NCBI GenBank assembly: GCA_017941705.1 | Contig: JAGAVX010000050.1 | Span: 1 to 64,000 of the forward strand | DNA: 64,000 nt | Direction of reading: 5' to 3' | Source: Atopobiaceae bacterium | GTDB lineage: Bacteria; Actinomycetota; Coriobacteriia; Coriobacteriales; Atopobiaceae | Shown: one piece after another, positions 1-10,927 of the stretch | Position numbering within the stretch: the first letter of the stretch is position 1 | How the letters are laid out: each line of letters opens with the position of its first letter | Notes under the pieces: model-generated | What the model was told of the DNA's origin: nothing | Seen by the model: only the letters and a program-made list of their open reading frames with translations | Database searches by the model: none | Translations under genes and position numbers: made by a program

Positions 1-27
1 CTCTCCAGCGCAATGTTGCGGTTTTCA

Positions 28-442
28 CTACGAAAGGCCCAGTCGCTGACAGATTCTGGCGATCTCGAACCGTACGCGCTCCTCGTCGATAGTGAGAAGC
101 TCGCGATTGCGCATGACCACCTTGCCATCGATGATGACGGTATCGACTTCGGACCCCGTTACCGAGTAGCAGAGGCCTGCGACTGGATTGTTGCATGGCG
201 TGAGCGACGGCGCGTCGAGGTCAAGCAGCGCGAGGTCGGCCTTCTTGCCCACCTCGATCGATCCGCAGGGCAAATCAAGTGCCAGTGCCGCGTTGCGCGT
301 GGCCATGTCGAGCGCCTCGCTCGCAGAAACGCACTGGGGCGTGTCGTGCGTGCCCTTGTGGACGAGGGCGAGAAGACCCAGCTCACGGAACATGTTCTGC
401 GCATTGTTCGAGGCGGCTCCATCGGTGCCCAGGCACACGTTG
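28..442 (-). pseudogene. C-terminal fragment of an MtaD/SsnA-type amidohydrolase
   Basis: About 138 codons of the C-terminal part of a metal-dependent amidohydrolase (S-adenosylhomocysteine/methylthioadenosine deaminase-like). The fragment opens with NVCLGTDGAASNN, which holds the family's metal-binding Asp. It continues through the GSIEVGKKADLALLDLD strand of the small beta domain to a TAG stop. Full-length members have about 430 residues, so roughly the first two thirds are missing, including the N-terminal HxH metal site. The homology stops exactly at the edge of the 36-bp repeat at 443-478. The repeat happens to read on in frame, giving a spurious short N-terminus. Either the gene was broken at the repeat or the assembly is joined wrongly there. 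Confidence 0.75.
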
Positions 443-481
443 GTTGAACGAGGGTCGGAAAAGTGACCTTCGTTCAACCGA

Positions 482-596
482 AGACGATAAGGTCTGGGCG
501 GCGATGCTCGATCTGGTCGATGAGTACAACTTGCCGCTTGTTAGTATGCTCGACAAGAAGGGTGTGCTAAAGAACTGCATGAAAAAGCGGACGTAA
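482..596 (+). pseudogene. C-terminal fragment of a small unidentified (phage-like) protein
   Basis: An open frame enters from the left repeat and runs to a TAA stop. Its unique part (DDKVWAAMLDLVDEYNLPLV..., ending MKKRT) looks like the last 38 or so residues of a real small protein: an amphipathic helical stretch and a basic tail. It is followed by a terminator-like hairpin and then a DUF6275-like start, an order typical of phage genes. I do not recognise the family. Its 5' end is missing at the repeat. Confidence 0.4.
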
Positions 597-654
597 AAGG
601 CAAGCAGTATGCCGAACGTCCGCAAATCCATCTTACCACATCCAGCTCACCAAC

Positions 655-676
655 GCGCCCCGCAAGGGGCGCTTTT
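655..676 (+). terminator. Hairpin with T tract inside the inter-repeat insert
   Basis: GCGCCCC, loop GCAA, GGGGCGC, then TTTT. It sits between the two gene fragments of the insert and just ahead of an AAAGGAG ribosome-binding site. Confidence 0.6.
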
Positions 677-692
677 CGTAAAGGAGAACGGC

Positions 693-831
693 ATGATAGA
701 GCGATTCAAGCAACTCGTCGCCGACTACTACAACGATCGCGCCGAGAAGACGGACGGCAAGACCATCACGGCCGAAGACGTGTACGTGGTCTGGTCTTGC
801 AAGACGCTGCAGAACTGGAAGGCGCTGCTCA
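693..831 (+). pseudogene. DUF6275-like phage protein, N-terminal fragment cut by the repeat
   Basis: ATG preceded by AAAGGAGAACGGC. It encodes MIERFKQLVADYYNDRAEKT... through EDVYVVWSCKTLQNWKALL, which resembles the small DUF6275 family from phages and prophages of Gram-positive bacteria (family assignment from memory). Family members run on for about 30 more residues after this point. Here the coding sequence stops matching exactly where the second 36-bp repeat starts at 832, and a TGA inside the repeat ends the frame. The piece is therefore a truncated foreign gene lying between two repeats. Confidence 0.6.
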
Positions 832-867
832 GTTGAACGAGGGTCGGAAAAGTGACCTTCGTTCAAC

Positions 868-976
868 GTGTCATCACCTGCTAAAACACGCTAATCGAAA
901 GAACGGGTTTTGCAAGTTCTCTCGGTCATGACCATTATACGCTCCCCCTAAGACAACAATTACGAAAGGGGGAGCG
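868..976 (+). promoter_or_regulatory. Leader-like region between the last repeat and cas1
   Basis: A 109-bp A/T-richer stretch between the second repeat and the cas1 start, as expected for a leader or cas promoter. It holds an imperfect hairpin at about 896-923 (CGAAAGAAC / GTTCTCTCG) and the cas1 ribosome-binding site AAGGGGGAG. I found no anti-repeat, so no tracrRNA is supported here. Confidence 0.35.
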
Positions 977-1885
977 GTGTCAGCATATCGCATAGTCTCG
1001 ATCGAAAACCCCGCTGAGGTGCACGTCAGGGACAAGCAGCTTGTCGTAATCCAAGACAAAGGGACCGTGTCAGTTCCCGTGCGCGACATCACGGTGCTGG
1101 TGGTTTGCGGCCCCAACATCCGCATGTCAACCATGGCTCAAACAATGCTTGCGTCCAGCAAAGTCGTCATGCTCTTTCTCGGCCGCAACCATCACCCGGC
1201 AGCCATGCTGCTCCCCACGATTGGCTATGCTCGTCAGGCCCGCATCGCCCAGTTCCAAGCCTCCATCTCTCCCGACCTCAGGGCAGAGCTGTGGCGGCGC
1301 ATCATCGTGAGAAAGATCGAAAACCAAGCTCGCGCACTTGCCATACTTGGGCTCGAAGGTGCCGAGCAGCTCTGGTCGTGCGCCCAAGAGGTCCTGCCCG
1401 GGGATGCGGACAATCGCGAGGGGCACGCCGCAAAGCAATACTTCCAGTACCTGCAACCCGGTCTCAACCGTCGCGTCGAGGACCCTCTCAACAGCGTGCT
1501 CAATTACGGATACGCCATCGTCCGGGCACTCATGGCGCGTGAGGTCGTGTGCGCGGGACTCATTCCCTCGCTCGGCCTGCACCATCGCAGCCAGCTCAAT
1601 CCCTTCAACCTCGTCGATGACCTCATGGAGCCGTTGCGTCCGAGCATCGATCTTCTTGCCGCGGGCGTTGCGGGCAAGTCAATCAACCTTACGCGAAAGC
1701 AACGGGCGTCCCTTCGTGAGGCAAGCCGTCTTGCGGTGCTCCTAAACAGGTCGCCCGTGAGCATTACCGCAGCTACACGAACCGTTGCGAGAACTTATCG
1801 CAAAGCTGTGTCCATAGGCGATCCGTCCGAGCTCATCCTTCCGGTGACACGTGAGGTCGAGCTCCTAGACATCATTGAGGAGTAG
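977..1885 (+). CDS. cas1: CRISPR-associated endonuclease Cas1, type II-like
   Basis: 302 residues from a GTG start that follows AAGGGGGAG. Cas1 is the integrase subunit that inserts prespacers next to the leader-proximal repeat. An N-terminal beta-sheet domain (about 1-85) precedes the helical catalytic domain. Candidate metal ligands are Glu148 (in EGHAAKQYF), His202/203 (LGLHHRSQLNPF) and Glu218 (DDLMEPLRP). The block NSVLNYGYAIVRA is a Cas1 hallmark, and the length matches type II Cas1. cas2 follows 2 bp after the stop. No cas9 or csn2 lies on either side within the window, so the pair is orphaned here or its effector lies elsewhere. Confidence 0.93.
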   Translation: MSAYRIVSIENPAEVHVRDKQLVVIQDKGTVSVPVRDITVLVVCGPNIRMSTMAQTMLASSKVVMLFLGRNHHPAAMLLPTIGYARQARIAQFQASISPDLRAELWRRIIVRKIENQARALAILGLEGAEQLWSCAQEVLPGDADNREGHAAKQYFQYLQPGLNRRVEDPLNSVLNYGYAIVRALMAREVVCAGLIPSLGLHHRSQLNPFNLVDDLMEPLRPSIDLLAAGVAGKSINLTRKQRASLREASRLAVLLNRSPVSITAATRTVARTYRKAVSIGDPSELILPVTREVELLDIIEE

Positions 1886-1887
1886 CA

Positions 1888-2193
1888 ATGCGAATCATCG
1901 TAGCCTTGCGACCAACAAACAAGCATGGGACAAAAGGGGAGTACACCGCGTTTCGCAAGCTTCTTCTGGCAAGTGGTTTGGTGCTCGTTCAACCCGAGGT
2001 CTTCTTGGGATGCGCTCCGACCAGAAGGGCGGCAATGTTGCTCCTCGAGCGGCTAAAAGAGCAGGCTCCCACAACTGGTGCGGTCTGTGCCCTCGTCCTC
2101 ACCGAGCGCCAGTTTTCGTCTATGGTCTACCTAACGGGCGAACCCTCGTACCAGGAGCACTCTGTCGGCACGGCGGCCAACATAGACCTGTGA
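1888..2193 (+). CDS. cas2: Cas2-like protein lacking the usual catalytic Asp
   Basis: 101 residues, starting 2 bp after cas1, so probably co-transcribed. Position and length fit the Cas2 dimer that bridges Cas1 dimers during spacer integration. The first strand MRIIVALRPTNK lacks the Asp found in the usual FFDLP-type motif of active Cas2 nucleases; an Arg-Pro lies there instead. The helix YTAFRKLLLASGLVLVQPEVF resembles the Cas2 RRYRKFRKFL...GF region. The C-terminus ends in GTAANIDL. Nuclease activity is not needed for integration, so an inactive scaffold is plausible. The family call rests mostly on context. Confidence 0.75.
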   Translation: MRIIVALRPTNKHGTKGEYTAFRKLLLASGLVLVQPEVFLGCAPTRRAAMLLLERLKEQAPTTGAVCALVLTERQFSSMVYLTGEPSYQEHSVGTAANIDL

Positions 2194-10589: not shown

Positions 10590-10927
10590 TGCTGGCACAA
10601 GGCTCTCTGGGGGTCTTGTGCCAGCATGGGGCTGTAGAGCCACAACGTGCAATGCCGGAGTGCTGGGGCCTGTCATGCTGGGGCTGCAGGGCCCCAATGT
10701 GCCAGGGTGGGGCCTCAGGCCCCCAACTTGAGGGCCTAAACGCGCCCTTCATCCATGCCCAGCTCATCTACCTGCGGATTTGCGAGAGAATCCTCCGTCA
10801 AGGCTTTTAGGCTGGGGTTCCAGAGCCACAACGTGCAATGCTGGGGTGCTGGAACCCCAGCCTGACGGGGCTACAGCACCCCAATATGCAACAAAGGGGC
10901 TCTATAACCCCAATATGCCGTTGCAGG
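10590..10927. repeat. Cluster of degenerate GGGGCT..AG..CCCCAAYRTGC hairpin units
   Basis: A 377-bp gap without a gene. It opens with a perfect 12-bp stem (10590-10601 with 10615-10626, TGCTGGCACAAG). At least six related units follow, starting near 10627, 10676, 10708, 10811, 10866 and 10896. Each is a small stem of G-rich and C-rich halves around a CT..AG centre, followed by CAA and a short [CT][AG]TGC box. One unit is nested in a perfect 14-bp stem (10810-10823 with 10849-10862). Confidence 0.6.

Follow-up and report, generated by a model that had tools for sequence, protein, structure and literature searches.

This locus raises the question of what a cas1-cas2 pair with no effector beside it does with long pieces of DNA. 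Two identical 36-bp repeats (443–478 and 832–867), adjacent to cas1 and cas2, enclose 353 bp at the start of the window, that is, the whole 64,000-nt stretch analysed here, whose first base is base 1 of contig C135 in the 2.81-Mb, 171-contig genome G000. The host is a gut or rumen bacterium, the inserts are about ten times longer than a normal CRISPR memory, and relatives in three phyla are alike. We assign a probability of roughly 0.8 to the reading that this is a CRISPR-derived long-fragment capture array, in which a type II-derived, Cas9-less Cas1-Cas2 integrates untrimmed 0.2–2 kb pieces of phage, self or related-bacterial DNA. The features of the locus are as follows.

1–442, no strand assigned: cas-proximal part of putative long spacer 2 (473 bp in total, the other 31 bp on contig C56), containing the 3' part of an amidohydrolase (SAH/MTA deaminase-like) gene in antisense
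443–478, plus strand: repeat 2, palindrome GTTGAACGAGGGTCGGAAAAGTGACCTTCGTTCAAC, 36 nt, exact copy of repeat 1
479–831, no strand assigned: long spacer 1, 353 bp, putative newest unit, bounded by repeats 1 and 2
480–596, plus strand: 3' end of an open reading frame, 38 codons and stop, cut by repeat 2
693–831, plus strand: first 46 codons of a DUF6275 phage gene, cut by repeat 1 (PF19791, E 1e-15; phrog_918)
832–867, plus strand: repeat 1, leader-proximal, 36 nt
868–976, plus strand: putative leader, the interval between array and cas1 (assigned by position; partly similar to the leader of locus L067)
977–1885, plus strand: cas1, 302 aa, type II-like (PF01867, E 2e-29; TIGR03639, 220 bits against a cut-off of 120)
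1888–2193, plus strand: cas2, 101 aa (TIGR01573, 36 bits against a cut-off of 24.5; Cas2_II, 7e-17)

The first-pass annotation had described exact palindromic repeats around 353 bp beside cas1-cas2, with a gene tail and a DUF6275-like gene start inside, both cut at the repeats. We confirmed the positions, identity and dyad of the repeats, identified cas1 and cas2 by Pfam and TIGR profiles, and found both truncated frames in spacer 1 along with a stem-loop. The repeat is a near-perfect dyad with a 15-pair stem (-23.2 kcal/mol; z -6.2, 0/200 shuffles equally good). The frame at 480–596 had no Pfam match and the putative leader at 868–976 no Rfam match. The genes adjoining the array are cas1-cas2 and, next after them in the window, gatCAB. 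An exact 20-bp direct repeat, AGAGCCACAACGTGCAATGC, lies in intergenic DNA at 10636–10655 and 10822–10841 and is unrelated to the array.

A search of the 2.81-Mb genome with the 36-bp repeat found no dispersed copies; besides this locus, two exact copies and one with three mismatches occur, all on contig C56, where they continue the array. A dispersed REP-like repeat was ruled out on this single-locus distribution. The first bases of C56 are those of the window in reverse complement, and the array extends upstream of the window onto this contig, where the two exact copies are followed by about seven decaying ones, all in the same orientation. Outward from cas1, the units measure 353, 473, 248, ~504 and ~726 bp, followed by further units, and the repeats match at 36, 36, 36, 36, 28, 33, 31, 30, 25, 25 and 26 of 36 positions, an identity that falls with distance from cas1 (Spearman -0.89, p 0.0002). 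The four cas-nearest repeats are identical and enclose the spacers of 353, 473 and 248 bp. From its sequence, the 353-bp spacer reads as the newest unit, the visible end of a larger array.

Likewise, window 1–442 appears to be not ordinary flank but a second long spacer that ends on C56. It is identical at 432 of 442 positions to an intact amidohydrolase gene on contig C129 of the same genome (G000:C129), with divergence exactly at 443, while C56 1–141 matches contig C144, which carries the mtaD-ahcY junction, perfectly, with divergence exactly at C56:142, the start of the next repeat. Spacer 2, 473 bp long, thus duplicates the mtaD-ahcY region of its own genome at 98% identity, with exact edges. 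The genes on C129 and C144, which we take from their sequence to be mtaD-like and ahcY-like, form a sensible neighbourhood. Spacer 4 is an older case of own-DNA capture: it is 81% identical along its length to own contig C57, with the alignment starting at base 10 and donor bases fitting the remaining edge.

The join between C135 and C56 is based on a shared 141-mer and on the exact breakpoints. Since the contig ends share exactly 141 bp, the assembler presumably used k=141, so that single 141-mers would span each 36-bp repeat junction. The alternative pairing (C135 with C144, C129 with C56) was disfavoured, as C129–C144 rejoins mtaD to ahcY and C135–C56 restores a repeat-bounded unit. An assembly artefact in which short repeats linked unrelated DNA, a possibility raised in the first-pass annotation, would suit the metagenomic origin of these assemblies and the frequent contig ends near these loci. 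It is scarcely credible in view of the 141-mers across the repeats, the exact breakpoints against donors, and the same anatomy in 13 arrays from different projects, one of which (L079) has up to 10 repeats on a single contig.

Relatives of this Cas1 at 48–81% identity are found in same-family and same-order genomes. Scanning a single genome per species yielded loci L061–L081 and L086, with loci reached via both collections counted once. About 20 related cas1-cas2 loci from Coriobacteriia, Lachnospiraceae and Spirochaetota, nearly all in metagenome assemblies and several on short contigs, share the anatomy. Thirteen arrays with at least two repeats (the window's included) hold 40 complete spacers of 186–2024 bp (median 455), and their repeats are 36 nt long and in a single orientation. 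Depending on the lineage, the array is found either upstream of cas1 or immediately downstream of cas2. Apart from gatAB, which adjoins cas1 also in G007, gene order around the distal end of the relatives' arrays was uninformative. In an unrooted Cas1 tree, a branch with 100/100 support separates the 21 long-insert Cas1s (Actinomycetota, Bacillota, Spirochaetota) from type II loci that have Cas9 and 66-bp periods. In this Cas1 lineage, long inserts are the rule and not an accident.

The repeats also set the lineage apart. The 51 type II control arrays have periods of 66–76 bp and weak hairpins (median -4.0 kcal/mol), whereas the hairpins of the long-insert repeats range from -11 to -31 kcal/mol. 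Covariation across the dyad was 0.532, compared with 0.175 after shuffling (0/500), with 34 two-sided cells against 12.9 shuffled. Paired changes maintain the dyad across lineages whose repeat sequences differ. In four Coriobacterial loci with the array downstream of cas2 (L062:7625–7630, L065:9196–9201, L066:1511–1516, and L077), the motif CTATAG lies immediately before the first repeat; in L061 it comes after the leader-side repeat (L061:1110–1115). Conserved beside the leader-side repeat, it is a candidate leader anchor for integration.

Such strong palindromes, together with orphan repeat pairs lacking a detected cas1 in G011 and G004, might instead be mobile or recombination elements (REP/MITE-like, or the sites of another recombinase) with cas1-cas2 as a mere neighbour. 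The chance of this is very slight: the repeats occupy a single locus in G000 and, in the clade, always lie beside this Cas1 clade, they keep one orientation with cas-proximal addition, and their sequence differs by lineage with the dyad kept. Orphan long-insert arrays occur at L242:8942–9371 and L243:7172–7614, each a pair of repeats spaced by about 360 bp for which no nearby cas1 was detected.

Gain of units could be followed in near-isogenic Treponema-type loci. Over 9294 bp, as far as the first repeat's end, L071 and L069 are identical but for 1 mismatch; beyond that point their inserts differ. Compared with L069, L070 carries an additional 222-bp unit, made up of a repeat and a 186-bp insert, precisely at its cas2-proximal end, and beyond it the array is 99.9% identical to the L069 units. 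This gain has the pattern of CRISPR adaptation, here with long inserts. Replicase, ParA and Fic genes lie beside the Treponema-form array (L069:1–8000), which suggests a plasmid location. MAGs from different animals, including one assigned to Lachnospiraceae by binning, carry its 9.3 kb in nearly identical form.

Donor homology extended to both edges for own_sp2 (98%), L070_sp1 (80–81%, flgK-like), L070_sp2 (80%, cyclophilin-like) and L079_sp8 (about 87%, own genome), and to one edge for own_sp1, own_sp5, own_sp6 and L067_sp2. The cas-proximal half of spacer 1 is 87–91% identical, up to its last base, to two phage-type loci in the genome of a relative. In the related locus L159 (L159:566–2940), a gene for a Mu F-like head protein with a toxin-type CdiA_C tip is followed by DUF6275 and a prohead protease, and the region corresponding to spacer 1 lies between head protein and protease. 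Window spacer 1 and L067_sp2, from two different genomes, both derive from this short prophage-like module. In phage DNA, window spacer 1 matched the DUF6275 of Faecalibacterium phage FP_oengus and nothing else, at only 72%, and L064 spacers had no match there. Spacer 1 is phage-related, as the first-pass annotation proposed; much of the captured DNA is chromosomal, from self or related bacteria, and not phage. No common PAM motif was seen in the ~10 donor flanks available.

These donors bear on a further explanation, ordinary CRISPR immunity with very long spacers, in which a trans effector would use part of each long transcript as guide. Its Cas1-Cas2, leader, repeats and polarity are CRISPR-like and some spacers are phage-related, as this explanation would have it. 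We regard it as very unlikely, because the 473-bp spacer, 98% identical to the host chromosome, would self-target, a PAM is absent from the donor flanks, and effector genes are lacking where they were sought. Cas9 occurred in the flanks of 0 clade loci versus 57/58 outgroup loci, and no short-period CRISPR array was found near any clade locus. A genome-wide effector search, which covered Cas9 only, found none in G000, where cas1 is also present just once; among relatives, the Cas9 of G078, G080 and G002 sits on contigs other than that of the long-insert locus.

The catalytic residues E148/H203/E218 of Cas1, aligned to 5xvn/4zkj, are conserved in 6/6 aligned clade members, the nearest solved structures for Cas1 and Cas2 are 4zkj, 5xvn and 6qxf, and Cas1 is under purifying selection (dN 0.037, dS 0.95). 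An IMG/VR search found no viral carriage of this cas1, and the plasmid records searched gave just a distant one. In the mechanism we propose, a type II-like Cas1-Cas2 pair would have lost Cas9 (and any Csn2 or Cas4), and double-stranded fragments of ~0.2–2 kb would enter next to the cas-proximal 36-bp palindromic repeat, which would be duplicated, leaving the newest units beside the leader and the oldest to decay at the far end. With no PAM choice by Cas9 and no HNH trimming, insert length would not be fixed; the symmetric repeat ends, if each can be attacked independently, would also leave it variable. In S. pyogenes, longer substrates are integrated unprocessed by Cas1-Cas2 on its own, and trimming to ~30 bp is the work of the Cas9 HNH domain within the supercomplex (PMC8034620). 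Untrimmed inserts are therefore what a type II lineage without its Cas9 would be predicted to have. The capture anatomy is well supported by sequence comparison, and it is highly probable that Cas1-Cas2 itself catalyses the insertion. A Cas1-Cas2 complex is normally a ruler for ~30-bp prespacers, and we count against this mechanism that it would have to bind both ends of a 500-bp fragment. The first-pass suggestion that this pair took up long DNA, or that the repeats serve as a capture site for larger cassettes, is supported as to capture by recurrence in independent genomes, contiguous donors for whole spacers, and cas-proximal gain of units.

What the captured DNA does for the host is a separate matter. 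Most of what the spacers encode is fragmentary, such as internal pieces of flgK and dnaN and parts of cyclophilin-like, HTH/excisionase-like and phage minor head protein genes; they also encode PBECR1 and PBECR2 nuclease domains, and one spacer of a Treponema array contains a complete barstar-like gene. Complete ORFs showed no clear excess relative to random fragments (n=40, mean p 0.40), and we therefore make no claim that whole cassettes are selected. The fragmentary content and this lack of clear enrichment, along with cas1 genes broken in several Olsenella-type relatives, fit neutral or slightly harmful debris, in which an effector-less module without length control inserts random DNA by the same mechanism to no function. 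We consider this unlikely while giving it real weight, since Cas1 is strongly purifying-selected and kept in three phyla with covarying repeats, and some Treponema arrays carry complete genes such as the barstar-like one. The broken cas1 genes belong to the same clade (L054, L055, L049, L050, L051 and L052) and indicate repeated loss.

A benefit to the host from long-fragment capture, possibly through occasional useful genes including immunity genes, is a tentative proposal to which we give somewhat less than an even chance. In a rumen spirochaete, an array of nine repeats (L079:1395–5197) has a complete co-oriented ORF in each of spacers 4–7, one of them barstar-like, and these could be captured immunity genes. 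Partial donor copies of its spacers 4 and 5, 95–96% identical, occur in other Treponemataceae genomes, where the context showed similar orphan genes and no recognisable toxin gene adjacent. That captured genes from phages, competitors and self are expressed, making the array an integron-like chronological store whose heritable memory is protein-coding and not guide RNA, is a speculative and rather improbable extension; immunity genes against phage- or competitor-borne toxins would be an example.

If the capture reading is true, CRISPR adaptation can run without an effector and without the ~30-bp limit, as a chronological DNA-capture device in three phyla. It makes testable whether spacer length is set by Cas1-Cas2 or by Cas9, Csn2 or Cas4, and could provide an integrase for writing fragments of gene size into a defined site. 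Programs that search for arrays under a spacer-length limit would probably overlook them. The open-access literature searched, preprints aside, gave no account of Cas1-Cas2 arrays with long inserts, and gene-sized DNA capture by an effector-free Cas1-Cas2 array is apparently undescribed.

Among known systems, the closest is the type II (II-A/II-C) adaptation module, which the locus resembles in its Cas1 and Cas2 (TIGR03639, 220 bits), its identical 36-nt repeats with polarised leader-side addition, one repeat duplicated per unit, and distal decay. It differs in its inserts (186–2024 bp versus ~30 bp, a 66-bp period, in type II), strongly palindromic repeats, tolerance of self inserts and absence of a visible PAM; neither short regular spacers nor a Cas9 effector in the flanks or in G000 were found. 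Integron cassette arrays share gene-sized units between recombination sites, the newest by the integrase gene, whereas the integrase here would be Cas1-Cas2 rather than a tyrosine recombinase, a single identical repeat replaces cassette-specific attC sites, and the units are mostly gene fragments instead of complete, promoterless genes. Casposons likewise employ a Cas1 homologue (casposase) that integrates long DNA; here, in contrast, the inserts are unrelated fragments and have no TIRs, PolB is missing, Cas2 is present, and the array grows at one site. Solo or isolated cas1 loci also carry an adaptation gene without an effector, unlike this locus with its cas2 and evidently growing array. The system works like CRISPR adaptation, lacks two defining type II features, has no casposon TIRs, and is not an integron by unit content; judged by these comparisons, we rate it as probably new as a system, though built from enzymes of a known kind.
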